Assembly: GCA_005222125.1 (NCBI GenBank)
Contig: CP029202.1
Location: 806,001-870,000, forward strand
Direction: 5' to 3'
DNA: 64,000 nucleotides
Source of the DNA: Spiroplasma melliferum
GTDB taxonomy: Bacteria; Bacillota_I; Bacilli_A; Mycoplasmatales; Mycoplasmataceae
Shown: positions 41,917-59,835 of the stretch, piece by piece
Layout of the letters: every line of letters begins with the position of its first letter
Position numbering within the stretch: the stretch's first letter is position 1
Notes under the pieces: model-generated
Databases searched by the model: none
What the model was told of the DNA's origin: nothing
What the model saw: the letters and a program-made list of their open reading frames with translations, nothing else
Position numbers and translations under genes: made by a program

Positions 41917-41942
41917 CTTAATTATCTGCTAAAATATTATTT

Positions 41943-42100
41943 ATTAACTAACACAACTGCACATCATTAAAATAAATATTGCAAAATTTAAAATAATATA
42001 TTACAATCAAATTAACTTTCAATTAACTAACACAACTGCACATCATTAAAATAAATATTGCAAAATTTAAAATAATATATTACAATCAAATTAACTTTCA
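41943..42100. repeat. Perfect 79-bp tandem duplication upstream of pyrC
   Basis: 41943-42021 and 42022-42100 are identical by eye. They sit at the virus/pyrC junction and would supply duplicated promoter-like AT-rich sequence to the pyrC-E genes. Confidence 0.9.
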
Positions 42101-42106
42101 AATATA

Positions 42107-42187
42107 AACACTTAATTATATTGAAAGTTTCAAACTATTTATAGTTTCCTTGGACGGAACTTTTAAATGTAATTTAGTGTTTTTTTA
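42107..42187 (+). other. Structured viral element with CCTTGGAC hairpin, before rep
   Basis: Outer arms AACACTTAATTAT and GTAATTTAGTGTT enclose GTTTCAAAC and the inner hairpin GTTTCC-TTGGAC-GGAAC (42144-42160), then a T run. It ends about 20 bp before the rep start. A second copy is at 43571-43648. Confidence 0.65.
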
Positions 42188-42207
42188 TTTGGAAGGAGTT
42201 TATAAAA

Positions 42208-43137
42208 ATGAATAATGTTTTTATTCAAGATAATTTAACAAATAAACGTCATAATGTATTTATGAATGCTTTAAATTATGTTAAAAAAGAATATTATTTA
42301 AAAAAAGTGTTTTATGGTAATTATGTTAAAAATATTGTTTTACCGCTAGAATTAGTTAATAATAATCCTCGTAATAAAATGGGAGTTAAAAATACTGGAA
42401 AAAATGATAAAAAATTGTGGAATAGTCGTATTCGCTCGCAAGGAAATTGTATTCGGAAAGCATATGAAAATTTTTGAAATTGTAAAAATTTAAGTTTTTT
42501 GACTTTAACTTATGCCGTTAATGAGAAAGATGTTAAAAAATGTAAAAATGATTTAAAGTTATTTTTTAATAATATAAATCGTTGATGAAACAATCCTATT
42601 CGTTCTAAAAATCATAAAGGAATTTTAAAATATATGTATACTTATGAGTATCAAAAACGCGGAGCAGTTCACTTTCATATCATATTAAACCAAAAAATAC
42701 CTAACAGTGTTGTACAACAATACTGAAAACACGGTATTAATAAAAATATTAAAGTTCGTGCAGGTTCTAATGAAGATGTTGTTAAATATCTTGCTAAATA
42801 TATTGTTAAAACTGCTAATAATGATAAGTCCCAAAATCATTATGATTTAAACATTAAAGCGTATCAATTTAGTAAAAATTGTAAAAATCCAAAGGTTAAA
42901 GTCGGTGTTATTGAATTATCTGAACAAGATTTAATTTATTCAGTTAAAGATAACTTAAATTATTTTTCTTTTTGTGATAAAAATGGTTATAAAATTGGTT
43001 TTAGTTGTGATAGTTATTATGGTTTAGATAAATTTAGAGAATTTAAAAAATATGTTTCTGCTGATAGAAAAATATTTAGAAATTTAGTTAAAAATACTAA
43101 TTTTACTGTTAATAAAAATACCAATTTAAGGTGTTAA
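42208..43137 (+). CDS. Plectrovirus replication initiator (HUH Rep)
   Basis: 309 residues when TGA is Trp. The metal-binding HUH motif is GAVHFHIIL at residues 157-165, and the catalytic-Tyr motif is VVKYLAKYIVK around residue 195, the arrangement of rolling-circle Rep proteins. It should nick the viral origin to start single-strand replication. RBS GGAAGGAG precedes the ATG. First gene of the viral plus-strand module. Confidence 0.9.
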
Positions 43138-43217
43138 AAATAGTTTATTCGTTCAATTTCGAAATTGAATGTACAAACTTGTTAATTCAAATACGTATTT
43201 GAAGGGAGATTAATTTT

Positions 43218-43418
43218 ATGGCAGATAGAGATGTTAAATGTAAAGAATGTGGCAAAATTTGAACTTTTACTACTAAAAATACAACTTATAATAGTTTTAG
43301 GGGTTTAGCAAAAGATACTATGATATCTTATGGTCATTATTATTTTTGCCCTGATAATAATTGTTTAGGTATGTATAAACATCGAAGACAGGATAATTGT
43401 TGTATTCATAAAAAATAA
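43218..43418 (+). CDS. Small viral zinc-ribbon protein
   Basis: 66 residues after SD GAAGGGAG. Cysteine pairs CKECGK and CPDNNC form a zinc ribbon, followed by a basic Cys-rich tail (KHRRQDNCCIHKK). Probably a DNA- or RNA-binding viral protein. Not visible under the standard code because of an internal TGA (Trp). Confidence 0.75.
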
Positions 43419-43478
43419 AAAAATGAGTTAAAAACTCATTAAAAAATGTGGCAATTGCCTTGGACAACAATTACCACA
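43417..43478 (+). terminator. Two adjacent hairpins after the zinc-ribbon gene
   Basis: AATGAGTT / AACTCATT with an A-rich loop, then TGTGGCAATTG (43447-43457) and CAATTACCACA (43468-43478) with loop CCTTGGACAA. The second loop repeats the CCTTGGAC motif. An A tract of 17 follows at 43492-43508. Confidence 0.65.
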
Positions 43479-43530
43479 AATTAATTAAAACAAAAAAAAA
43501 AAAAAAAACAAGTTTAGATTTATATTTTAT

Positions 43531-43558
43531 TTGACAATTTCAATTTTTGTTGTATTAT
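43531..43558 (+). promoter_or_regulatory. Viral promoter
   Basis: TTGACA and TATTAT separated by 16 nt, upstream of the second structured element and the 43788-47323 gene series. Confidence 0.65.
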
Positions 43559-43570
43559 TGAATTAACTTA

Positions 43571-43648
43571 AACATTTAATTATGTTTGAGTTTCAAATCT
43601 TAAAAGGTTTCCTTGGACGGAACTTAAATATAATTAAATGTTTTTTTA
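43571..43648 (+). other. Second structured CCTTGGAC element
   Basis: Arms AACATTTAATTAT (43571-43583) and ATAATTAAATGTT (43629-43641) enclose GTTTCC-TTGGAC-GGAAC (43607-43623), then seven T. It resembles 42107-42187 in order and in all three parts; downstream, AAGTTTCAAACC recurs near 43726. Confidence 0.65.
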
Positions 43649-43787
43649 TGCTTATTTATAAACTTTATTTAAACAAAAAACACTAATTTTTTATTATAAT
43701 TTTTAATTAATCATTTTTTATATTTAAGTTTCAAACCTGAAATCTTTTAAGAATCTATATAGATTTTTAAAAGAAAGGAGAAATCTT

Positions 43788-44135
43788 ATGAATGGATTTC
43801 TAGTACAGTTGATAGATATTGCAACGGGTAAAATTATTAAAGATGACAAAGGTAATGAAAGTAAATGAGATAGTTATACATTTACACCAGTTATTAAATT
43901 AGAAAATGGTACTGTTAAAGGTACAAAAGATTTGTCAAAATCAAAATGATTTAAAATAACTGATGAAAATTATTTAGAATTAAAACCTTATTTAATTGAT
44001 GGTAATTTATTTTATGTTTCGCTTAAATGGGATGGAAAAATTAATATTGTTGAACCATATACAGAAAATTATAACGAGCAAGAATTCATTAACAAATATT
44101 CTAATAATTCATCAATAACAGAAAGCAATAGTTAA
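43788..44135 (+). CDS. Viral protein, candidate ssDNA-binding protein
   Basis: 115 residues after SD AAAGGAG. It starts MNGFLVQLIDIATGKIIKDD, is beta-rich with many Lys and aromatic residues, and ends in a polar Ser/Asn/Glu tail, a layout common to single-strand-binding proteins. Position between Rep and the coat gene fits an inovirus gene V-like role. No motif proves it. Confidence 0.6.
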
Positions 44136-44136
44136 T

Positions 44137-44268
44137 ATGAAACAACAATTATGTATTGTTTGTATTAATGATACTGTTTGAGAAAATGGATCTCGTTATT
44201 GTTGAAATTGTGTTAATGAAAATGTTATTTTAATTAATCAATATTATTCTAGGTTAGAAAATGACTAA
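44137..44268 (+). CDS. Small viral zinc-finger protein (43 aa)
   Basis: Starts 1 bp after the preceding stop. CIVC and CWNC pairs 18 residues apart form a likely zinc site. Two TGA (Trp) codons. Coupled translation with the upstream gene is likely. Confidence 0.65.
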
Positions 44269-44295
44269 GAAAAAAACAGATTGTTAAGGTTATAA

Positions 44296-44412
44296 ATGGC
44301 AAAGAATAAAGATAAATTGATTATTAAATTAGAAAAATTAATGTTAAGGTCATATCCAGTTTCAGCAGATGAAATTACTAATGAACATTGAGCAATAGTA
44401 AAGAAAAATTAG
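44296..44412 (+). CDS. Small viral protein (38 aa)
   Basis: MAKNKDKLIIKLEKLMLRSY followed by a short acidic stretch. Weak SD (TTAAGG). Ends 1 bp before the next start, in a tightly packed gene string. Function unknown. Confidence 0.5.
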
Positions 44413-44413
44413 A

Positions 44414-44641
44414 ATGAAAAAGCAAACTAAGTTATATAAACAACGATTAAAATATTTGGTTAATGTTATACATCAATGTTTACCTACTAAAATACCATTA
44501 TTTATGTTAAGAAAAGTAATTAAGTTATATCTTAATCATAATGTTATTGATATTGGTGTTATGGAAGAACAACATTTTAAGTTATTAGTAGAACAAGTAA
44601 AAAATTATATGTTAAAAATAGAAAGTGAGAATCAAAAATAA
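44414..44641 (+). CDS. Small basic viral protein (75 aa)
   Basis: MKKQTKLYKQRLKYLVNVIH at the N-terminus; helical and basic, no membrane segment. Its stop overlaps the next start (TAATG). Could bind nucleic acid; not recognised. Confidence 0.65.
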   Translation: MKKQTKLYKQRLKYLVNVIHQCLPTKIPLFMLRKVIKLYLNHNVIDIGVMEEQHFKLLVEQVKNYMLKIESENQK

Positions 44642-44829
44642 TGGATATAGTTGCTATGATTTTATTAGTTTCAATAATTATTTTATTGTATATTTATGTT
44701 ATTTCTTCTATGTTTTTTGATAAAAGAAAAATTAAAAAAGATAAATTACAAAATGAAAAATTAGAACTTGAAAATGAGAAATTAAAGTTAGAAATTAAAG
44801 ATTTAAAAAATAAGGAGAGTGATAATTAA
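44641..44829 (+). CDS. Viral membrane protein with coiled coil (62 aa)
   Basis: One N-terminal hydrophobic helix (MILLVSIIILLYIYVISSMF) followed by a Lys/Glu-rich coiled coil (KLELENEKLKLEIKDLKN). Start and stop overlap the neighbours by one base (TAATG), indicating coupled translation. A minor coat or assembly role is plausible. Confidence 0.7.
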   Translation: MDIVAMILLVSIIILLYIYVISSMFFDKRKIKKDKLQNEKLELENEKLKLEIKDLKNKESDN

Positions 44830-45011
44830 TGACTGTTTTTGCAACAATTATTTTAATACTATCAATGTTTATGTTATTAATATTTTTAACAGTAAGTACA
44901 GTATTTAAGATTAAAAATAAATATTTAATTTGTCCGCATTGTTCTAAAAAAGTAGAATTTAAAGAATGGGGAAAACGAAAAATTAAAAAAGCAGATAAAT
45001 CTGTTGAATAA
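44829..45011 (+). CDS. Viral membrane protein with CPHC finger (60 aa)
   Basis: One hydrophobic helix (TIILILSMFMLLIFLTVS), then ICPHCSKKVEF and a basic tail (GKRKIKKADK). A single Cys pair could bind metal as a dimer. Function unknown; part of the coupled string. Confidence 0.7.
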   Translation: MTVFATIILILSMFMLLIFLTVSTVFKIKNKYLICPHCSKKVEFKEWGKRKIKKADKSVE

Positions 45012-45028
45012 GTTAATATCAATAAAAT

Positions 45029-45102
45029 ACCTTGGCAAGTATAAAAATTGATTTTAGTTTTTAGTGTTAATTACTAAAATCAAGGTTAGAGATTGCCAAG
45101 GT
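45029..45102 (+). other. Nested stem-loop before the coat gene
   Basis: Outer arms ACCTTGGCAA (45029-45038) and TTGCCAAGGT (45093-45102); inner arms TTGATTTTAGT and ACTAAAATCAA. Located 40 bp before the coat gene. Candidate transcript-processing or packaging structure. Confidence 0.7.
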
Positions 45103-45398
45103 TTTATTATTAATAGAAAGTATTTTAAGTGAGGTGTTGTTAATGAATGCAAATTTTTTAGCAGAAGGTACTAGTCCTGACGCAAGTGTTATTAAGCAAA
45201 TAGCAGATTTTGCTGGTGTTCTTGCTGATTGGGCGATTGCTTTTACTAACTGATTTATCGGTTTTTTAGGGTCACATATGTTATTAATTATTCCGTTAGT
45301 TTTAATGTTTGTGGTTTTAGGAATTGAAACAATCAGAAAGTTAATTCACGGATATTAATATTTAATAATAAACTCTAACCTTGATTTTAGTAGTTAAC
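45066..45398. repeat. 26-bp inverted repeats flanking the coat gene
   Basis: 45066-45091 and the complement at 45373-45398 match at 25 of 26 positions (GTTAATTACTAAAATCAAGG here; GTTAACTACTAAAATCAAGG in the complement). The coat gene lies exactly between them. Confidence 0.85.
45143..45358 (+). CDS. Viral major coat protein (71 aa)
   Basis: MNANFLAEGTSPDASVIKQI begins a short acidic/polar N-terminus, an amphipathic stretch with two Trp follows, then a hydrophobic helix (LLIIPLVLMFVVLGI) and a basic tail (RKLIHGY). This is the layout of filamentous-phage major coat proteins. SD GAGGTG. Position between small proteins and the Zot-like ATPase agrees. Confidence 0.85.
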
Positions 45399-45420
45399 AT
45401 TTAGGAAAGGAATAAGAAAA

Positions 45421-45579
45421 ATGCAAAGTGTATGAGATTTATATTATGAATTTATGACTATTATTTTTGGAGTTAATCACCCTATTATTTTAGATATTGT
45501 TATATTTGTTGTATTTTTAATACTTGTTTTTGGTTTATTATTTTTAATTTTAAGCTGTATTTTTAGGTGGATAAAATAA
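45421..45579 (+). CDS. Small viral membrane protein (52 aa)
   Basis: One long hydrophobic helix (IVIFVVFLILVFGLLFLILS) after a short acidic N-terminus, basic end (FRWIK). SD AAAGGAAT. Stop overlaps the next start. Probably a minor coat protein. Confidence 0.7.
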
Positions 45580-45788
45580 TGGACTGAAATATTTTTTTGC
45601 AACGAGTATATCGAGGTCTTTTACAAATTTTTTATTTTATTCCAAAAACTGAAATTGATAATTTTGTCGGTAGTTCTATTGATAATATTACTTATTCAGT
45701 AATTATGATAGGTATTTGATTAGTTGTTTTTTTCCTAATTTGGTTATCAATATTTATTTTATATAAAACAATTAGATTGGTGGTGTAG
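45579..45788 (+). CDS. Small viral membrane protein (69 aa)
   Basis: MDWNIFLQRVYRGLLQIFYF, a polar middle and one hydrophobic helix (VIMIGIWLVVFFLIWLSIFI). Overlaps the upstream stop (TAATG). Minor coat or assembly protein likely. Confidence 0.7.
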
Positions 45789-45790
45789 AC

Positions 45791-46801
45791 ATGTTTAAAA
45801 TTTATTTTAATTTATTTAGAAGACAAAAGAATATTAAATTTTCTTATTGATTTGTAAATTGATTTATAGCAAATATTTTATTTTATCTTTTTATTGTTTG
45901 TTTTAATTTACAGTTTATATATTTTAGTTCTACATCAGTTACTGATATTATCCTTTTTATTTTTTTAGTAATTTTTGATATTATCTTTTTTTGGTCTTTT
46001 TTTAGTAATCTTTTTCAAACACGAAAATTGATTAAAATTATTAAAAGTAGTCCAATATCAATTATTAATGGTGCTTTGGGTACTGGTAAAACTTTATTGA
46101 TGACTTATTTATCGCAAATTGCTAAGTTTGACAATGTTTATTCTAATTATTTTATTAATGATGAAAAAATAGGAGTTTTAGGTTTAAATCATTTAGATTT
46201 TAAAAATAAAAATTATAAAATACCGCCAAATGATAGTTTAATTTTGTTTGATGAAATATTTTTGTATATGAATGGTGCTAAACCGGAAGAAAATAATAAA
46301 AAGTTTAGCGGTTTAATTCCATATTTTTTGTTATGTCGTCAGTTTGATAATAATATTGTTTTTGCTGGACAACGAATTAATCAAAATTGAGTGGAATATA
46401 GAGAGATTGCTAATATGATTATTGTTCCTATGCAGTGTATTAAACCTAGTATATTTTTTCCTTATTTTAAAATGAAAATAGGTTTTTTTGATGACTTAGA
46501 TGATTATTTAGTATGAAAAACAGAAACAGTTAAACGAACAGCAAACGGTAAAAGAGTTCGTAAAAAGTCTAATAAAGATATTGGTATTAATTTTGTTAAG
46601 ATAACAATTCCTTTGTCTATTGCTATGCAATATGATAGTAAATATTTAAAATTTGTGCGTGATTTAAAAAATGATAAAGTACCAAGTTATATTAAACAAA
46701 ATTGACCTAGTATTGTTAAAAAAGATATTACAATTAATGAATTACGAGAAATGGGTATGGAACATTTATTAAAGAATTTGGGGGAATTAGAAAATGATTA
46801 A
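45791..46801 (+). CDS. Zot-like virion assembly ATPase
   Basis: 336 residues. Two N-terminal hydrophobic helices (FVNWFIANILFYLFIVCFNL; DIILFIFLVIFDIIFFWSFF), then a P-loop GALGTGKT with LIKIIKSSPISIING before it, and a Walker B-like LILFDEIFLY. This is the pI/Zot family that drives filamentous-virus extrusion through the membrane. Five or more TGA (Trp) codons. Its last codons overlap the next gene by 8 bp. Confidence 0.88.
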
Positions 46802-47087
46802 TTTACTTGCTAATGATGTATGAAATGGTGCCATTAATGTTGTAGTCGATATTTTTATGAAAATTATGGATTGAATGTGAGCATTAAAATTGCCTGGTAC
46901 AAATATTCCTTTATTTGTAATTTGAGTAATTGGTGGTGTTATAAATGTTATTTTGTTATTAGTTAATAGTTCTCGTGGTTTAAGTTCAGTTTCTCGTTCA
47001 TCTTTACAAGCAAGTAAGCAAATATCTAAGGGGGTTAAAAATATAAGTAATGATTCTAAAAGTGATAATAAGGAGAGTAATAAATAA
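46794..47087 (+). CDS. Viral membrane protein (97 aa)
   Basis: MINLLANDVWNGAINVVVDI at the N-terminus, a hydrophobic helix (PLFVIWVIGGVINVILLLV), then a Ser/Lys-rich basic tail. Overlaps the ATPase gene by 8 bp and the next gene by 1 bp. Probably a minor capsid or assembly protein. Confidence 0.7.
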
Positions 47088-47323
47088 TGATTAAGTTAAT
47101 ATTTTTCTTTGTTATTGGTTTAACTGTTGGTTTTGGTTTTATTGCTAATATTGTTATGGCAACAGATTTAGGTTTTTCAACTGTTAAACATTATTTAGAA
47201 TCTGCTAACGATTTTTATAAATTGGTAGCACATTTATTTATTATTGCGACACATCCTATTTTTCAGTTATATATTGCGTTTGGAATTATCATTATGGGAA
47301 TTAGACTTATTTTTATTGCATAG
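47087..47323 (+). CDS. Viral membrane protein (78 aa)
   Basis: Two hydrophobic segments (LIFFFVIGLTVGFGFIANIV and LYIAFGIIIMGIRLIFI) around a short amphipathic region. Coupled to the preceding gene by TAATG. Minor coat candidate. Confidence 0.7.
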   Translation: MIKLIFFFVIGLTVGFGFIANIVMATDLGFSTVKHYLESANDFYKLVAHLFIIATHPIFQLYIAFGIIIMGIRLIFIA

Positions 47324-47335
47324 GAGGTTAAAACA

Positions 47336-47788
47336 ATGCGAAAACGATTATTAGATGTATTTATTGTTTTTTATTTAATATTTGGTTGAATATTTCTTTT
47401 TTGTGGTACTGTAACAACTAATAATTTTAGCAATACCTATAAATTGTATTTAAAAAATAATGATACTTTTAAAGAATTAACTTATGACAAAGCAAATGAA
47501 TATGATTTTCAGTCTACTTTAATGCTACGACAAGACTATTTTATGCAAGGTTTAGATCCTAGTAATTATGCATTTAGTTTTGGTATTAAATTGGGTGGTT
47601 GAGATGGTTTAAGTGCTGATAAAAATGATAATAATTATTGATTTAAACTTTTTACAACAAATTATAGGAGTTATGAAATTACTTGAAATTCACAAGATAT
47701 TTCAAAGGGATGACAAGGAAAATTAATTTTAGATAATGATAGTACTGGTAGATTTTTAAAAATTATTGTTTATAAATGTAAATTGTAA
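47336..47788 (+). pseudogene. Large viral capsid protein gene, 5' fragment
   Basis: 150 codons beginning MRKRLLDVFIVFYLIFGWIF after SD GGAGG. The frame ends in a stop made by the boundary of the inner mobile block at 47777. The 3' part of the gene resumes at 53387. By position this is the minor capsid/adsorption protein. Confidence 0.75.
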
Positions 47789-47807
47789 ATGCAAGTAGAA
47801 AAAAATC

Positions 47808-48803
47808 TTATATTTTTATATTAACATATTTTTTAATAAAATTGACAAAATAATTTTTTGCTGAATTTCAACTTAAACACTGTCGTGGGCGTTCATTAAT
47901 TATATTAACTATTTCATCATAATATTCTTGTGAATAAACATCTAAATCTATTCCTTTAGGAAATCAATGCCTTAAATCCCGGTTAATTCGTTCCACAATA
48001 GGTTTCTGAGTAGGTTTACCTTTATCACAAAAATAAACTTTAGTACCAATATAAGCTTCAATTTGTTTTCATTCTGAAAACTCTTTACCTTGATCAGTTA
48101 TAATACCTTTAACTATTTTCTTTAAGATATTAGTTTTAAAAATACTTTTAATAACTCTAATTACTTCGTTTGGTGTTCTATCTTTTAATTTTTTTACAAT
48201 TTCAAATTTAGTTAATTGTTCAGTTAAAACCAAACAAACAGATTTAAAATCTTTACCAACTATTGTATCCATTTCAAATCAACCAAATTCATTTTTATTA
48301 TGTTTAGCTTCTGCAATAGTTCGAAAATTACTTAATTTACCTCGATTATCAATATTTTGTTTACTTTTATTTTTTCGACCGCGAAAATACAAATTACGTT
48401 TATTTAAACCAAATAAACCAAGAAAAACATACTTATATAAAGTTTTAAAACACACCGGAAATTTGATACCAAATTCACGTTTATATGCATAGCAAATAAT
48501 CTCGGGCGACCAATGAAACTTATTAAATTTTTCATCTAATCACATTAATTGTTGATATGAAAATTTAATATGCTTAACTGATTTTTTACGATTTTTAAGA
48601 TACTTTTTATGAGCTTTAATAGGATTATATTCTTTTAACTTTTGAAAACGTTTAACTTCATTTCAAATTGTAGATACACTTCTTTCCATATATTTAGCAA
48701 TTTTAAATAAATTTGGTTTGCCATTTTTCTTTTGAAATAGTTTTGATACTAATAACTGACTTAATATAACACGTTCATCAATACTGAAATGCTTATAATT
48801 CAT
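47808..48803 (-). CDS. IS30-family transposase
   Basis: 331 residues. N-terminal HTH (FKIAKYMERSVSTIWNEVKR), then the DDE core: FEMDTIVG (D), GIITDQGKEF (D) and QKPIVERINRDLR (E). RPRQCLSWNSAKNYF near the end is a typical IS30 tail. Transposases of this family occur as a normal gene of several SpV1-type viruses. The left inverted end lies 20 bp past its stop. It appears full length. Confidence 0.93.
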
Positions 48804-48875
48804 TATTAAATACCTTTCTAAAATTTTTTGTTATAATTATTACATATTTTTAATAAAGGAAGGAATAAGTTAAAA

Positions 48876-49322
48876 ATGAAAAAGTTACTAAGTATTTTAG
48901 GGGTATGTGGACTAGTTGGAATGTCAGCAAATTTAACAGCTTGTGATAAACCTAATAACAATGAAAACGGGGGAAATAAACCAAAACCTAATAAACCACA
49001 AGAACCACCAGTTGGAAGCAAATGAAAGTTAATTGATATACATAGTTCTGATTGAATATCTAATAATGAATTTCGTAATAATAAAAATAAATGATATATA
49101 ATGTTTGCCAAAAAACGAAATACTAATAATTTTAATTTTATTAAATTTAAAAATGATGATATTAATAAACCATGAAGTCTTGGTGATGAAGGTAGTTTTA
49201 ATATTTCTTTAAAAGGTGAATGATATTGATTTAATTGATTATACCGTTGAGATGGAAACAGTGAACCCCAAATACCAACAGTTGACAATAAAACAGGAAA
49301 AATTACAGATTGAAAAGAATAA
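48876..49322 (+). CDS. Lipoprotein carrying a copy of a viral capsid-protein domain
   Basis: 148 residues. Residues 1-24 form a lipoprotein signal (MKKLLSILGVCGLVGMSANL, TAC lipobox) very like Spiroplasma lipoproteins. An Asn/Pro/Lys-rich linker (NENGGNKPKPNKPQEPP) follows. From WKLIDIHSSDWIS to IPTVDN the protein is the same as residues of the decayed viral capsid gene at 49342-51562; the DNA (49023-49291) matches 50765-51033 without indels. SD AAAGGAAGG. The product should display a viral capsid domain on the host surface. A role in superinfection exclusion is speculation. Confidence 0.85.
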
Positions 49323-51033
49323 AAGGACTAACAAGTCCTTTTTATATTAATCTCACAAATTTCATAAAAATAATTAATAAAAATATATTTGTTATTGTAT
49401 TATATAATGCTGGACTAAATTTTCATACCTCAAATGTCTGATTAAAAAAACTATATATTGTTTGAAAAATCTTACCAACACCACTTGCTAACTCATTCAC
49501 TTGTTTTACACCAGGAATATTATTAACAACTCATATTGCTGCATTTCTAATATGGCAAGCAATATTATATCAACTACAACTTTCATACTGTGCTTGTCAT
49601 CATTGACCGTCAGGGAATAATCCACCATTATTAATTTCTTGTCAGTTATAGATTCCAAAATTAAAATCATAATAACGATACATATCATTTTCTTTTTGAG
49701 CTTGTAATTCAAAAACATTATAACCAATTTTTTGTTCTTCAATTTTTTTATATTTTAAACCATATTTGTCTTTTAAAGCACCTTCAAAAACATAACCCTC
49801 ATTTTGATTAATATTATAATCATTTGCAACGGAAAAATCATAATTAAATACATTACCATAATTAGTACTATAAAAACGATTTTTATAAGCAGAATACAAC
49901 TTGATATCTAATTGATTATATTTATCTGAAAAATAAAAGTAACGTGGATAAATTTTAAAACCATTATTCGCTAATAAACCATATTTTTTATTATAACCTT
50001 GAACATAAGTATTATTTTCTAAGTCAAAAATGGTTCGTAAATAATCCTTATAAAAATTTTGCGAAACTGTAAACATACTATTTAATAACTTTTCAAATTG
50101 ATTTTTATTGGCATTATTTTTATCAATTAAAACATCTCTAAAATTAACTAATTTTAAACCAAAAAAGTTAATTAAAATCGTATCATATTGTAAATTATTA
50201 ACATATCCACTTTCAATAAAATTACTACGATTTTGAAATACTGGAACTAAAGCATGAGCAAAAAAAGCTTTTAAAAATTTATTAATATCAATTTGTCCTT
50301 TCATATGTTCAAAAACAACTTTACCAGTATTAGGAGAATTACCCTGATAATAATTATATGTTTCAGCACTAAAATTAAATGTATTTTCTTTATCTTTCAT
50401 AAAAGAAAATAAAAAACCTAAATCATCAGTATACCGATAATTATTATAATCATATCCATTTCAATATTGTTTAAAATGTGTTAACTCTAAACTCCCAGCA
50501 ATAATATTTTTTCGTTCATCAATCGTTAAAATCATTCGATAAATTGACTTTTTAGTTAAAATTGTACCAGTACTAGTTTTATCTAAATTATTAATAATTT
50601 CAAAATCAAAAATAATTCTTTGACTACCTAAATTTGGATCATCATAATCAGGGTTACCACCTTGTTGAACTCGAATATTTTCTTGCACAATAACATTAAT
50701 ATATTTTAATAAAAAAGAACGAGTATTTTGATATTGATTATCAGTTCAAAAAATAGGATTGCCATTATTGTCAACTGTTGGTATTTGGGGTTCACTGTTT
50801 CCATCTCAACGGTATAATCAATTAAATCAATATCATTCACCTTTTAAAGAAATATTAAAACTACCTTCATCACCAAGACTTCATGGTTTATTAATATCAT
50901 CATTTTTAAATTTAATAAAATTAAAATTATTAGTATTTCGTTTTTTGGCAAACATTATATATCATTTATTTTTATTATTACGAAATTCATTATTAGATAT
51001 TCAATCAGAACTATGTATATCAATTAACTTTCA
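49023..51033. repeat. 269-bp inverted duplication shared by lipoprotein and capsid gene
   Basis: 49023-49291 (plus) equals the complement of 50765-51033; the two translate identically over about 85 residues in more than one frame, so nearly every base must match. Confidence 0.9.
49318..49343. terminator. Bidirectional terminator between lipoprotein and capsid gene
   Basis: Stem AAAAGGACT-AACA-AGTCCTTTT, directly at the ends of both convergent genes. Confidence 0.85.
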
Positions 51034-51562
51034 ATCTTGAAATTTTAAATTAACTATCTGTAAATTATCAACACCCTTTTCTAATTTATTAATAACTTCA
51101 ATAGTATTAAAATATTTTGCAAAAGAATAAGAAAAATTAGTTAATTCTTTTAAAAATTGTTTTTTATCAACATCATAAAATTTATCAATGTTATATTGTT
51201 TAGCATAAGTATCTCAATTTTTATATAAATCCATAAACTCATCACTAGGCTTGTCGAATGAAATTCCAGTTGAATAACTATCTTTTAAAAAATCTAAGTA
51301 TCATTTATCATTATAAATTAATTATTGTGATGTTTTTAATGTTGGGTTAATAAAATAATTTGTTTCTGACCAGTTTTCAAAAAAAAGTACTACGTAAAAA
51401 CATTGTATTAATAAAATCTGTTTCATTCATTCCTGTTGCTTGCTGTTTAACAGTATAATTTTGCTGATTTAATGGTTTAAAAGCAGTTAAAGTAATCAAA
51501 GGAATAATTAAACCTAAAATTCCTAAAATACCAACTGCAAATAAAGATAAAGATTTTTTCAT
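49342..51562 (-). pseudogene. Large viral capsid protein gene, decayed second copy
   Basis: Starts MKKSLSLFAVGILGILGLII (signal-like) after AGGAG and ends with a hydrophobic C-terminus (NIFLLIIFMKFVRLI). The frame is broken by an extra base in an eight-T run at 51379-51386 and then by an in-frame TAA near 51325. The remaining 650 codons are intact, including NAAIWVVNNIPGVKQVNE, which matches NAAIWLVNNLPGMKDVYN of the outer virus gene. It is homologous to, but not the same as, that gene, so a second virus is represented. Confidence 0.8.
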
Positions 51563-51585
51563 ATAAAATACTCCTAACTATCAAT

Positions 51586-51697
51586 TACTTTTGCTGTTAA
51601 CTGGCCATATTAAATACCATATCACCTCCACAACAAAATACAACATTGTTTATTACACTTTAATTTTTAAAAATATGGCCAGTTAACAACAAAAGTA
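51586..51697. repeat. 26-bp inverted repeat upstream of the decayed capsid gene
   Basis: 51586-51611 and 51672-51697 match at 25 of 26 positions (TACTTTTGCTGTTAACTGGC and complement). The 60-bp loop contains, on the minus strand, GGAGGTGAT followed by ATG and a seven-codon frame. Confidence 0.85.
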
Positions 51698-51713
51698 ACT
51701 TAAAAAATATTAT

Positions 51714-52184
51714 TTATCACATAAAATTAAAATTTCTATATTCCCGATAACGTCTTGGCAATTTAAATTTTCTAACAGCATTATAAACAATTATAACATT
51801 GGGTAAATTTAATTTTTCAATAATTTCACTAATTTTAAATCCTTTTAAATACATTTCTTTAATCTCATCATAAGGATATTTACTTCGATATTTAGGAATA
51901 GTAATAATTTTATCCAGCTGATCACAAATTCCATTTTCACAATCAAAACGATAACCTTTACGAAATTTAAAAGAAGAATTTCATAAATAAACCATACGAA
52001 TTGGAACATTATATTTCTTACTAATTTCAGAACATGACAACAAATTAAGAAAAAAATCTTTCAAACAACTAATAACTAACTCATCAGAATACTTTTGATT
52101 TCAATTCTTTTTTCTAAGTCCTGTTGCATCATAATATAAAGACCCATATGTTCCAAATAATGAATTATTAATTTTATTTAACAT
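51714..52184 (-). CDS. Viral DNA-binding (HTH) protein
   Basis: 156 residues, basic. Two helix-turn-helix-like segments: ISKKYNVPIRMVYLWNSS and ISEIIEKLNLPNVIIVYNAV, the latter followed by RKFKLPRRYRE. SD TAAGGAG. Two palindromes sit upstream of its start (52210-52268), which suggests an autoregulated repressor or a transposase accessory protein. Belongs to the inverted inner virus segment. Not recognised as a known family. Confidence 0.7.
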
Positions 52185-52209
52185 AATTAAAAACTCCTTA
52201 CTGTAATAA

Positions 52210-52268
52210 ACATTGGTATACTAATGTAACTTAATTCTTGTTAAATAAACATTGGTAATAACAATGTT
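52210..52268. promoter_or_regulatory. Two operator-like palindromes upstream of the HTH gene
   Basis: ACATT-N8-AATGT (52210-52227) and AACATTG-N7-CAATGTT (52248-52268), 26-85 bp before the HTH protein's start codon. Confidence 0.55.
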
Positions 52269-52368
52269 AAATATATAAAATCAAAAATTAAGGCACACTG
52301 AAAATAACTACTTAGTTTTAACTAATAGCTATTAAAATATAAAATTATATGTTTATAATTAAGTTGAT

Positions 52369-52628
52369 ATTTTTACACTATATACTGCCTACAAGTTTTT
52401 GAAAAAAGAAATACTTTTTACAACATTATTTCTATTAAATCCTACTAAAAAATATTTCATAATAGACTCAATATTATGAACAATAAACAATATAAATGTA
52501 ACTACTATTGGCGATATAGTCATATTTATTTCCACAACAGGATTTTTCATCTTGTTAACATTATCAATAATAACCAAAATAATTAAATTTATTTAAAAAT
52601 AAATTTGTAGACAGTGTATAGTGCAAAA
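52369..52628. mobile_element. 260-bp element with imperfect 30-bp inverted repeats
   Basis: TACACTATATACTGCCTACA (52373-) and the complement of TGTAGACAGTGTATAGTGCA (52604-52623) agree at about 17 of 20 positions; outside them GGCACACT (52292) and AGTGTGCC (52668) form a further pair. The interior has only a short minus frame (52389-52577) with a hydrophobic stretch and no SD. Reads as a small non-autonomous element or IS remnant. Confidence 0.55.
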
Positions 52629-52708
52629 ATAAACAACAAAATTATTTATTCAATTCACATAAAAGCTAGTGTGCCATAGCTAAAATATATGATCAGTTGT
52701 AATAAATA

Positions 52709-52957
52709 TTAAAATCCTTTAACCATAACACGGAAAAAGTTTAAAATCTTAATAATTACAAAAATTCCAAATGGAATCAAAATAATTCACGCATCACCTA
52801 AAAAGGTCATTAATTGTGGTAACACAGCATAAACAGCGTCTTTAACTTTTGTCATAGCTTGTCCTAAACCACTTCAAATAGAATCCATTCCACCTGAAAT
52901 AGTAGGAGTATCTGCAGCTAGAAAATTAACAGCTGTTGTTAAATACATACCTAACAT
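52709..52957 (-). CDS. Second viral major coat protein (82 aa)
   Basis: MLGMYLTTAVNFLAADTPTI, then an amphipathic segment ending in a hydrophobic helix (WIILIPFGIFVIIKIL) and basic tail (FRVMVKGF). The layout is that of a filamentous-virus major coat protein, but it is clearly different from the 71-residue coat protein at 45143. TGA (Trp) codons hide it. Coupled to the upstream 49-residue gene by TAATG. Confidence 0.75.
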
Positions 52958-53106
52958 TATTTATTTTCCTCCTTATTTTTAATCTCTTTCTTATCTTTTT
53001 TCTTTCCTCGAATTTGGCGAATTTTTTGATAAATTGATAAACCAATTCAAGCAAAAATACCTAATATAATAACAACACTAAATATTGTCGTTAATCAAAC
53101 TGGCAT
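52957..53106 (-). CDS. Small viral membrane protein (49 aa)
   Basis: A hydrophobic helix ([20 protein letters not shown]) followed by a strongly basic, Lys-rich tail. Preceded by AGGAGG. The tail includes the SD of the following coat gene, whose ATG overlaps this stop. Confidence 0.7.
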
Positions 53107-53130
53107 AACTTAATTCCTCCTAAAAATTTA

Positions 53131-53220
53131 ACTTGCGCGGCACGCTCCGCGTGTTCGCTACGCTCAAAATAAACAATATTGAATAAATTACCGCTAATAA
53201 ATTACGCGGATAATTTATTC
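53131..53220. other. GC-rich hairpin cluster in the inner virus segment
   Basis: CACGC-TCC-GCGTG at 53141-53153 within a GC-rich island, and GAATAAATTACCGC / GCGG(A)TAATTTATTC (53181-53194, 53206-53220). GC-rich hairpins are exceptional in this AT-rich DNA; possible replication origin of the inner virus. Confidence 0.6.
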
Positions 53221-53301
53221 ATTTTCTTTTACATTATTAGTTACTATCTTATTAACAGTAATAATAACATTATCTTTTCCATACTTAGTTACTAAGGACC
53301 G
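53215..53301 (-). pseudogene. 3' fragment of a viral gene
   Basis: 28 codons, RSLVTKYGKDNVIITVNKIV and then TNNVKENE with stop; no start. Its 5' part is cut off at the IS-end repeat beginning near 53303. Confidence 0.5.
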
Positions 53302-53302
53302 C

Positions 53303-53385
53303 AAAATAAAATAATGTTTTCTTTCCATTAAAAAAATCAACTCCTTTCAAAGTTGATTTTTTTCTGCTTCATATTACAATTTACA
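53303..53385. repeat. IS-end repeat, second copy of the miniature element's right end
   Basis: About 83 bp similar to 7269-7351, including the AAATCAACT / AGTTGATTT hairpin and the terminal TTACAATTTACA. Confidence 0.75.
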
Positions 53386-53386
53386 A

Positions 53387-54349
53387 AATAAAATAAAATA
53401 TGATTTTATTTTTAATATAGATATATTTGAATATTTATTTTTTCCTATTGTTTCCAATCAAAGTTATAGACATTTTGATTTGAATTATTTAATTTTTAAT
53501 TCTAATTATAAAAATTTAATTAATATGGATATTATTAAAAATTCTAATTCTCAATATTTTATTAATGATGTTAAGCAAGATAATTTTTCTTTGGAAAGTT
53601 TTTTTCAAATTTTAGATTATTTTTATTCTAATATTTTAAGAGTTATATTTGATATTTCTAATTTTAAAGAATTTATTTATTTTAATTCTTCTAACGAGAA
53701 TACTGGTTTTGCTTTTTTTGTAAAAAATGGTTTTTTATTATATCCAAAATCAATGCTTTTTAATATTTTAAGATTCCCTGATTTATCAGCAACTTATTTA
53801 AACCCAATAGTTAATTTATATAATGCTTATAATATAAATGTTAATCAAAATTATTATTCTTTTTTTTCAAATTGACAATATCAAACTGATATTTTGCCTT
53901 CTAATAATGATAAGTATACTCAATCAATAAAATTATTAGATATGACAGATAAATCAAAATATCAAGGTTTTAATTTGATTACTTTTAATGCTATTAATAT
54001 TGGTAAAGATAGTTCTATTTCAGTTAATGGTTTTAATTTTAGCCTTTATAATGCTACTGATTGAAATAATGAAATTAATAATGGTAATATTTGACGAATA
54101 CCATATAAAAGTTGTAGTTGATATAATTTAGCGTGTCATATACAAAATGCGGCGATTTGATTGGTAAATAATTTGCCTGGTATGAAAGATGTATATAATT
54201 TTATTAATGGGATAGTACATGTATTTAGCAATGTGTCTGAGTTGTTTAATAATATTGGTAATTTATTTGCCTTTGATATTACATTTAAGATTATGTTAAG
54301 TTCTATTTTAGTGTTAGCGATGGTTAATGGACTTTTACGCTATTTTTAG
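53387..54349 (+). pseudogene. Large viral capsid protein gene, 3' fragment
   Basis: About 320 codons open from the inner block's boundary (NKIKYDFIFNIDIFEYLFFP onward) to a stop at 54347. It includes SCSWYNLACHIQNAAIWLVN and a hydrophobic C-terminus. Matches the 3' half of the decayed copy at 49342-51562. No start codon. Compared with that copy, a central part of roughly 100 residues seems to be missing between the two fragments. Confidence 0.75.
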
Positions 54350-55322
54350 TAGTAAAAATAATGTTGTTAAGAAAAAAAGTAAGGTGGTGCGATGGTTTAT
54401 CACGCACCACCTTACTTAAAGGGGTAAAAGTCGCGGAGCGACTTAGGGGCAACGCCCCTTTACTTGATAAGGCCATTCGTATAAAAACCCCATTTGCCAT
54501 TTGTTCAAATATTTTTGCTTGTTGACATTCAACAACATCATCATCAATTTCAATACCACGATTAAAAGGTGCTGGATGCATAATAATTGCTGTTGGTTTC
54601 ATTGTTGCAACTAATTCAGATGTTAACTTATAATTTCGTAAATAATCTAAATGATATTTTTCATCAGCATGAAATCGTTCAAACTGATAGCGTAATAACA
54701 TTACAACATCCATTTTCGGCAAAGTTGCTTTAAAATCAACAGGTGTTACACCAGGTAATTGTAATTCATTAATTCATGTTGTATAAACATTCATTCCTAA
54801 TTTTTGCATAATTTGAATATTAGTTTTTGCAACTCGTGAATATTTAATATCTCCAACAATTATAATATTTAATCCTTTAAATTCACCAAAATGTTCTTTA
54901 ATTGTTAACAAATCTAATAAACTTTGGGTTGGATGATTTCCTGACCCATCACCACCATTTAAGATTGGGATTTTAATTTTATTAGCAAGTTGATGATAAT
55001 AATTATTTTCTGGATGACGAATAACTAAAGCATCAACCCCTAACGCTTCAAATGTTTTAACTGTATCATATAAAGTTTCTCCTTTTTTTGTTGCACTAAA
55101 TAATTCATTAAAATTTAATGTTTTACAACCTAATTTATGTGCTGCAACATCAAACGAATAATGTGTTCTTGTTGATGGTTCGAAAAAAAGATTTGCCACA
55201 ATTTTTGTTTGTTGATAGTTTACTTTTTTTTCATTATTTTTAAATTGTAATGCTGTCGTCAATATTCCATGAACATCATATTCAGTTCAATTTTCTAAAT
55301 TAAATAAACTTTTATTTTTCAT
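54324..55322 (-). CDS. pyrB: Aspartate carbamoyltransferase with virus-encoded C-terminal tail
   Basis: 332 residues. The carbamoyl-phosphate motif is FFEPSTRTHYSF, with GGDGSGNHPTQSLLD, DVVMLLRYQFERF and MHPAPFNRGIEI. It commits aspartate to pyrimidine synthesis. After GVFIRMAL the homology stops and 50 residues are read from viral hairpin DNA (SSKGALPLSRSATFTPLS...). Native PyrB probably ended about eight residues after RMAL (INNILADN), a sequence found just before pyrC. Whether the tailed enzyme is active is unknown. Confidence 0.9.
54377..54459. other. Three GC-rich hairpins at the viral end
   Basis: 15-bp stem AAGTAAGGTGGTGCG / CGCACCACCTTACTT (54377-54391, 54403-54417); AAGTCGC-GGA-GCGACTT (54428-54444); AGGGGC-AAC-GCCCCT (54445-54459). 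Candidate single-stranded-virus replication origin or packaging signal; it is also translated as the pyrB tail. Confidence 0.8.
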
Positions 55323-55360
55323 TAAAAATAACCTCACTTTCCTGATTTCTAATAAACATA

Positions 55361-55608: not shown

Positions 55609-56721
55609 TTAAAATTCTGATTGTGTCATTGAATTAATGCCCCCACCACCAATAATTATTTCGCGTGCATAAATAGGAATTACTTTCCGCTTTGGAAAAC
55701 ATTTTCGTAATACCATAATTGCTTTTTGATCATACACTGGGTCACCAAAAATTGGACAAATTAACGCTTTATTGACAAAATGAAAATTAAGATAACTAGC
55801 GGGAAGGCGGAAACCTGGCATTCGGTGTTTAAAACGTAAACTACATTCACGATCAATTGCTTCTCGTTGTGTTAAAAATAATGGAATTGGTTGATAAATT
55901 TTAGTAATTTTTAGTTTTCGTCCTTTGGCATCAGTTGTTGATTCTAACAATGACAAAGCTTCTACACTTCGTTCATACTGTGGATCATCTTTATTGTCTG
56001 TTCATGCTAATAATACATGTCCTGGCTCAACAATTTGAAGTAAATTGTTAATATGACCACACGCTTCATCATTATATAGTCCGCGCGGAATTCAAATAAT
56101 TTTTTTAACATTTAAATATTGCTTTAAATATTGTTCAATTTCAAGTTTTGTTAAAGTCGGATTTCGATTAGGGTTTAATAAACATTCTTCTGTTGTATAT
56201 AATGTTCCTTCTCCATCAACATTAATACTCCCACTTTCCAACACCAATGGACAAACATAATAATCAACACCACTAGTATTGGCCATTGTAATAGCCACTT
56301 TATTGTCCACATTATAGTCTCATTTAAAATTTTTTGCTTTTAACATTAAACTATTTTGCATTCCTCAGCCATTGAATTCAAAACTAACCGCACGGTGTTC
56401 TCCATTTTCATTTACTAAATAAAGTGCTCCTATATCACGCGCCCAACTATCATAATAATGTGTTTTTATTAAGTTAATATTACTATTTGCTAGCATTTTT
56501 TTAACTCGTAAGTAATTCTGTTCATTAACAATCATTTGGACTGGTTCATAATTACTAATAATTTTAGCAACTAATGCAAAAATTTTTTGCGCGGGAAAAG
56601 CGTCTTTCTGTCAATTGTCCTTCATATGCGGTCATATCATTCAAGTTTGGATGTGATTGCTTGTTTCTCCTGGTAAATAAAACCCATCTTCTTGCGGAGT
56701 TGTTGTTAATAATTTACTCAT
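55609..56721 (-). CDS. Agmatine deiminase homologue lacking catalytic residues
   Basis: 370 residues with the full AguA-type scaffold: [62 protein letters not shown] and RLPASYLNF. In the enzyme family the last motif is usually GGNIHCITQQ with the catalytic Cys; here it reads [14 protein letters not shown] is GSIN and GHID is GHINN. With Cys to Ser and two His/Asp changes it is unlikely to hydrolyse agmatine. The reading frame is otherwise intact, so it may have another role or have recently lost activity. Several TGA (Trp) codons. Confidence 0.85.
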
Positions 56722-56872
56722 TTATAGTTCCTCCGTTCTAAATAGCACCGACTATTTTATTAATAAAGAAAAATATAATTAAAAATATTATTTGTTATTT
56801 AAAACAAATAATATATAAATGATTATTATTAAAAATCATTTTTAAGCAAAAATTTTCAATATAGATATTTTT

Positions 56873-57256
56873 TTAATACGTTTGATTTAAAATATTAATT
56901 TCAAAAGAAACTGGCGAAGATGGCACAATTTGACTAATACTTGCAATACAACGGATAATCATTTTTCCCTGAGGTTTTAATTTACAAAGAACCTTAATTT
57001 TGTTTGTTAGAGCAAAATTTAATTTTAAACAAGTATTAAAAACTTCTGTTGCCACAGTTGGATTAACAATTTTAAGCTTAAATGAATCTCATTCTTTTTC
57101 TAAATGCCTTTGATGATAATTAACTCGTAATTTATCAACTTGGATTTCATTTTGATATAAAATAATATCTGTCATTTCTGATTGTTTAATATAATTTGAA
57201 CCTAAATCAGAAAAACATAATTGTAAATAATCAATTTCAAAAAGATTAACTGCCAT
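56873..57256 (-). CDS. Hypothetical protein (about 127 aa)
   Basis: Begins MAVNLFEIDYLQLCFSDLGS; the C-terminal half is beta-rich (KIKVLCKLKPQGKMIIRCIA). No signal peptide or membrane segment. GGTGA lies 5 nt before this ATG, whereas the ATG 7 codons upstream (57277) has no close SD; the longer form is possible. It stands alone between aguA-like and thrS. Not recognised. Confidence 0.6.
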
Positions 57257-57277
57257 TTCTTCACCAATTTTCCTCAT

Positions 57278-59591: not shown

Positions 59592-59830
59592 TTTCCAAAA
59601 AGTAAAACTCGCTCCCAATATTACTTAAAGCAATAATACTAGGAGCGAGTTCTTCGCGGTACCATCCTAATTAAATTAGGATTTAACCTAATTTATCTTT
59701 CACACTTAATAACGAAAAGTGCTTAAACGTAAACTAATTGCTGTTACTAGTAATCTAATCATTCTTTTATTAAGCTTCCATCACCCTTAACTTGCTGAGA
59801 AAAGAGGAAGATTAGACCATGGGTAACTAG
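59592..59830 (-). promoter_or_regulatory. T-box riboswitch leader of thrS
   Basis: On the minus strand the T-box sequence TTAGGATGGTACCGCG is followed by the terminator AACTCGCTCC / GGGAGCGAGTT with a T-rich end. Upstream, GGTCTAATC and GATTAGATTAC can pair as stem I, and ACT (Thr) lies in GATTACTAGT where the specifier is expected. Uncharged tRNA-Thr should favour antitermination. Confidence 0.88.
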
Positions 59831-59835
59831 TTTAA

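Follow-up and report, generated by a model that had tools for sequence, protein, structure and literature searches.

A Spiroplasma agmatine deiminase homologue that lost catalytic residues and was kept under selection

What does an agmatine deiminase (AguA) homologue do once the residues on which its chemistry depends have been replaced and its gene is still intact? This question is raised by a locus in the 64,000-nt stretch of DNA analyzed here (the window), which comes from a close relative within the citri group of Spiroplasma (genome G000). Other genomes named below include S. kunkelii CR2-3x (G001), S. citri R8-A2T (G003), and S. phoeniceum P40 (G006). The gene is located as follows.

55609..56721, minus strand: AguA-like gene, probable pseudoenzyme, 370 aa plus stop in translation code 4 (reading frame and profile matches)

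The frame is unbroken over its 370 codons, seven of which are TGA read as tryptophan. Its product scores 431.4 bits against TIGR03380, above the curated equivalog cut-off of 381.8, and matches PF04371 with an E-value of 1.3e-102. Homology to AguA spans the entire protein, and the solved relatives include the agmatine deiminases of A. thaliana and E. faecalis. An earlier note on this DNA had placed an intact frame at exactly these coordinates, without naming the strand, and called its product an agmatine deiminase homologue, as the profiles bear out; it had also read the altered motifs (GSIN, GHIN, and the one near the C-terminus) correctly from the protein.

To set the protein among its relatives, we ran TIGR03380 against 320 genomes of the order, of which 23 gave a match, and against a sample of 392 genomes from the phylum, of which 44 did. 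The order search returned 30 match rows, 23 of them full length; the seven fragments (two from G003 and one each from G012, G040, G316, G317, and G318) were left out. All 35 rows from outside the order (24 loci and 11 additional sequences) were added, giving 58 rows: 47 intact-type proteins, four of the window lineage, five of a second lineage without the catalytic Cys, and two broken copies (the second copy of G219 and the G002 copy). Each of the 35 outside-order rows has the Cys. The G002 copy (L027:8819-9565) has Cys and Asp in place and contains two TAA stops.

Residues were mapped by alignment to the E. faecalis enzyme (2JER), together with the equivalences printed in PMC4487231 for C357, H218, N306, D220, D96, and W93 (E. 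faecalis numbering). From E. faecalis to the window protein, D96 corresponds to D96, W93 to W93, E157 to E162 (from the alignment to 2JER alone), H218 to H223, D220 to N225, N306 to N312, and C357 to S364. The codons concerned were read directly from the DNA, all on the minus strand.

55630..55632, minus strand: codon 364, TCA (Ser), replaces the nucleophile Cys (C357 in E. faecalis); alignment, codon read
55633..55635, minus strand: codon 363, AAT (Asn), replaces a His (H356 in E. faecalis) found in 47/47 intact-type rows
55639..55641, minus strand: codon 361, GGC (Gly), replaces an Asn; Gly also in 3/47 intact-type rows that keep the Cys
55786..55788, minus strand: codon 312, AAT (Asn), kept (N306 in E. 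faecalis, the Asn of the proposed Cys-His-Asn triad); alignment, codon read
56047..56049, minus strand: codon 225, AAC (Asn), replaces a guanidinium-anchoring Asp (D220 in E. faecalis); alignment, codon read
56053..56055, minus strand: codon 223, CAT (His), the catalytic His (H218 in E. faecalis), kept; alignment, codon read
56221..56223, minus strand: codon 167, AAT (Asn), replaces the His of GSIH, a variable position in intact-type rows
56233..56238, minus strand: codons 162 and 163, Glu162 kept and Gly163 changed to Ser; alignment, codon read
56434..56436, minus strand: codon 96, GAT (Asp96), the second guanidinium-anchoring Asp, kept; alignment, codon read

The positions of Cys364, His223, Asp225, and His363 are invariant in all 47 intact-type rows, 35 of which come from outside the order. 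The window protein shares with AguA enzymes (TIGR03380/PF04371; 2JER of E. faecalis and 3H7K of A. thaliana) its full-length homology, its predicted fold, and Trp93, Asp96, Glu162, His223, and Asn312; it differs from them in having Ser for the nucleophile Cys, Asn for one of the two guanidinium-anchoring Asp residues, and Asn for the invariant His adjacent to the Cys. Among 48 columns that are at least 95% conserved in the intact-type rows, six are altered in any of the four window-lineage orthologues, and D225 and C364 alone are altered in all four. The change of Asn361 to Gly is undiagnostic, since Gly also occurs in intact-type rows. In PPAD, according to PMC4487231, the changes C351S and C351A at the position of C357 fully abolish activity, as do D238A and D238N at the position of D220. 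The window protein is therein an enzyme homologue without required catalytic residues.

The claim that the catalytic Cys, His, and Asp had all changed thus stands for the Cys (now Ser364) and the Asp (now Asn225) and falls for the His: the catalytic His is H223 of the GHIN motif and is present. The His of GSIH does not rank among the conserved catalytic residues; 28 of the 47 intact-type rows have it, 15 have Ala, and one row each has Ile, Val, Asn, or Ser. We looked for the catalytic residues elsewhere in the protein, and the alignment is collinear with the solved enzymes up to the C-terminus, which rules out relocation. A sequencing or assembly artefact is ruled out as well, because independent genomes carry the same changes and spell the Ser codon with differing third bases (TCA and TCT).

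The AlphaFold model of the window protein has a pLDDT of 90.8 and forms the five-bladed alpha/beta propeller of the family; its best structural match is A. thaliana AgDI (3h7k; Z 54.0, rmsd 1.5 over 354 residues), a match that is partly built in because the input alignment consisted of 15 rows of AgDI relatives. By the title of its entry, 6b2w is the C. jejuni agmatine deiminase, its Cys likewise changed to Ser, crystallized with substrate bound, so that binding without turnover is feasible. In PPAD, the counterpart of D220 is engaged in a double salt bridge (PMC4487231). Asn225 should therefore weaken guanidinium binding, and its presence speaks for a ligand interaction that is weaker or of another kind.

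We then considered how old the losses are. The earlier note had allowed for a very recent loss and had suggested looking for the same replacements in other Spiroplasma. In a tree of 45 of the 58 rows (the 13 omitted were one broken copy and 12 thinned from the outside-order rows), the four window-type proteins group together as a single, fully supported clade, nested within a clade of intact-site copies from G011, G053, and G058. Cys to Ser and Asp to Asn are common to all four intact orthologues, one of which is only 75% identical with dS near saturation; both losses are therefore old, and a very recent origin is ruled out for them. The G005 copy lacks the Cys and Asp and keeps both other His residues; the S. 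phoeniceum and S. kunkelii copies additionally carry His363 to Asn and Gly163 to Ser; and His167 to Asn (GSIH to GSIN) is found only in the window species and in the broken S. citri fragments. These successive additional losses indicate that the decay was stepwise, and GSIH to GSIN alone is a recent change. The gene is broken in two of the six genomes of the window lineage, S. citri and G012, and this breakage came later than the loss of Cys and Asp. Living species thus stand at successive steps, from G011 (intact) through G005, S. phoeniceum and S. kunkelii, and the window species to S. citri and G012 (broken).

Selection after the loss was estimated from pairwise counts and from a branch codon model. 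The copies of G000 and S. phoeniceum differ by 52 synonymous and 27 nonsynonymous changes (dS 0.273, dN 0.031, dN/dS 0.114), which departs from neutral proportions with a binomial p of 3.5e-18; between the same two genomes, dN/dS is 0.103 for thrS and 0.047 for pyk. For the G006/G001 pair, the AguA-like gene has a dN/dS of 0.508 and thrS one of 0.632. In the codon model, omega is 0.049 on branches of active enzymes, 0.249 on the stem of the loss, 0.062 on deep branches after it, 0.053 on mid-depth branches, 0.277 on the pooled tips, and 1.51 on the G003 branch. Fixing omega at 1 costs 61.8 lnL units for the mid-depth branches, all of which postdate the loss (2 delta lnL 123.6), 97.0 for the deep branches, 2.8 for the tips (barely under 1, p 0.018), and 0.1 for G003. 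The broken G003 copy, in which 17 nonsynonymous changes stand against 3 synonymous ones, served as a negative control and is indistinguishable from 1. As the model is our own script and the deep branches are near dS saturation, our argument rests on the mid-depth branches and the pairwise count.

The window lineage has been under strong purifying selection since the residues were lost. This holds for the lineage as a whole, the tip leading to G000 since its split from S. citri being too short to show it by itself. Selection after the loss, the first option of the earlier note, is accordingly borne out, while the non-catalytic role attached to it is our inference as well. The breakage in S. citri and G012 indicates that the role is dispensable.

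We examined the surroundings of the gene for a functional partner. The order pfkA-pyk-thrS-134-aa gene-AguA-like gene is kept in G000, G001, G003, G005, G006, and G012, with three PTS-type frames between thrS and the 134-aa gene in G005. The constant neighbors are limited to these, and there is no conserved functional neighbor. A scan of genome contigs gave one locus only, that of S. phoeniceum. Two elements lie directly upstream of the gene.

56728..56734, minus strand: GGAGGAA ribosome-binding site, 6 nt upstream of the ATG and the same in 6/6 aligned genomes
56787..56812, minus strand: A+T-rich inverted repeat followed by a T run, between the 134-aa gene and the AguA-like gene, kept in 6/6 aligned genomes

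From its sequence, the inverted repeat is a putative terminator; a terminator scan found none. The promoter scan gave 41 sites against 27.1 expected and was not used as evidence. No RNA element was found near the AguA-like gene at E-values up to 1. Elsewhere in the window there are a T-box leader before thrS (59638-59833; 62.8 bits, below the gathering score of 93) and a weak bglG-type RNA match.

The 134-aa protein (56873-57277) has no Pfam match and occurs in 10 of 60 genomes, all Spiroplasma, its gene lying near thrS in eight and elsewhere in two. An operon role shared with this neighbor is unsupported, as four of the 10 genomes have no AguA-like gene. A link to the pyr genes is likewise unsupported, since other species either lack these genes or have them in a displaced downstream position. 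In the window the pyr operon is split, with pyrC (profile-confirmed) at 37.6-41.9 kb, beside what we take from similarity to be pyrK, D, F, and E, and with pyrB at 54324-55337; the genes between the two parts (41917-54349) are presumably plectrovirus-like. The last ~46 residues of the window PyrB differ from the G005 protein, and in G005 pyrB abuts pyrC.

Searches for aguB and aguD covered 21 genomes each. G005, G011, and G004 have an aguB-aguD-aguA operon, and G002 has one with a broken aguB. The G002 aguB (L032:8447-12798) is in pieces beside a repeated frame, presumably transposase-like. In G000, G001, G003, G006, and G012, these searches found no aguD, apart from one weak match in G003 (E-value 5.7e-4), and no aguB match above 42% identity; G000 itself yielded only a 42% match and pyrB. 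Unlike the AguA operon systems, then, the window genome has no partner genes for putrescine carbamoyltransferase and the antiporter next to the AguA-like gene, and no second AguA was found in it. As its genome lacks aguD, a clear aguB, and any further AguA, the window protein serves no live partner enzyme.

Several explanations have to be weighed against these observations. The gene might be a leftover on its way out, one that once had a role and is now a near-neutral remnant in the window species with its frame not yet broken. Its breakage in G003 and G012, the neutral evolution of the G003 copy, the added GSIH-to-GSIN change in G000, the disappearance of the agu pathway, and tips too short to show current selection would all fit; the low omega of the post-loss mid-depth branches does not, nor do a frame, start region, and ribosome-binding site that are intact and conserved, and we judge this explanation unlikely. 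Alternatively, Ser364 or another group, together with His223, Asp96, and Glu162, could perform different chemistry on another substrate. Such a changed enzyme would account for the retention of the catalytic His, one Asp, the Glu, and the Asn and for the raised omega on the stem, as expected for a change of function. We know of no member of the superfamily with a Ser nucleophile, however, and the crown species have lost His363 too. Given also that Cys-to-Ser and Asp-to-Asn changes each abolish PPAD activity (PMC4487231), we consider a changed enzyme improbable.

That the protein originated as an inactive subunit which forms mixed oligomers with an active AguA and so modulates it, a role that some pseudoenzymes have, seems to us very improbable. 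G005, which has the Cys-less copy and an intact aguB-aguD-aguA operon, would offer the setting for it, but G000, G001, and G006 have kept the frame without any other AguA, and in G000 the protein therefore cannot tune one. The reading that we favor, and hold with moderate confidence, is that the window protein is a pseudoenzyme, AguA by descent, that no longer hydrolyzes agmatine and acts without turnover as a ligand-binding or sensing protein or as a structural one. An ancestral Spiroplasma AguA copy of the 'a' type, which is not the one encoded in the aguB-aguD-aguA operon, lost the Cys and one Asp, while the remainder of the protein, with Asp96, Glu162, the catalytic His, and Asn312 still in place, stayed under purifying selection. 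The five-bladed fold and a modified pocket would thereby have been kept. Preferring ligand binding to a purely structural role is a weak claim, and we are rather doubtful of it. As reactive and substrate-holding residues were lost and the gene was nevertheless long kept by selection, it probably has a job other than agmatine breakdown.

A second such lineage (family f5) exists in the same order. It comprises five full-length AguA homologues (G053b, G058b, G314, G315, and G319) without the Cys, which is Ser in four and Asn in one, all with intact frames, at the following loci.

L036:8057-9175: AguA-like gene without the Cys, family f5
L037:7412-8515: AguA-like gene without the Cys, family f5
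L107:3827-4930: AguA-like gene without the Cys, family f5
L108:3587-4690: AguA-like gene without the Cys, family f5
L109:5297-6424: AguA-like gene without the Cys, family f5

All five have Arg for the catalytic His, and 23 of the 48 conserved columns are altered. Upstream in all five loci lie rbfA and infB, with other reading frames between in some (identity by profile: both genes for L036, rbfA also for L107 and L109). Pairwise comparisons give dN/dS values of 0.19-0.45 at high dS. G053 and G058 also carry an intact-site AguA copy. The two lineages are alike in being AguA homologues with the Cys lost and the frame intact; the f5 lineage differs in its independent origin, its loss of the catalytic His, and its location downstream of infB-rbfA. 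A common origin is ruled out at a cost of 80.9 lnL units (AU p 9.7e-94), in a test whose joint group was defined post hoc from the tree and that involves a long stem branch. We propose, tentatively and as a possibility on the unlikely side, that in Spiroplasma-related Mollicutes two or more separate events converted the AguA fold into a persistent protein without hydrolytic activity, mostly through one and the same Cys-to-Ser replacement; the window line, its pocket almost wholly preserved, may be a guanidine/agmatine-type sensor, and the infB-rbfA line may have joined ribosome assembly. eIF6, a ribosome factor of related fold that has no catalytic activity, would be a parallel if the latter is the case.

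Inactive relatives in this superfamily are already known. According to PMC7698193, Listeria monocytogenes AguA2 is an AguA homologue without demonstrated agmatine deiminase activity, in contrast to AguA1; it differs from the window protein in that its genome has an active AguA1. Human PADI6, of the guanidino-group modifying superfamily, is described in PMC11402830 and PMC4487231 as inactive in vitro on standard substrates and biologically needed; it differs from the window protein in being from a vertebrate and another subfamily and in the features lost. We found no paper in the open-licence literature that joins agmatine deiminase with Spiroplasma or with pseudoenzyme. Open-licence papers naming agmatine and Spiroplasma include, by title, none on this protein, and 'deiminase' and 'agmatine' are absent from the main texts of PMC3563533, PMC8140453, and PMC5874924. 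In another family of the class (f15; loci L076-L087 and L089-L091), AguA domains lie in open frames of ~870-930 aa, which suggests a fusion protein.

Standard annotation would name the window protein 'agmatine deiminase'. Proteins that lack the catalytic residues clear NCBI's equivalog cut-off, and reconstructions of metabolic pathways would therefore attribute agmatine catabolism to such species in error. The window lineage offers a clean natural case in which the chemistry of an enzyme was lost early and the gene was then kept by selection.
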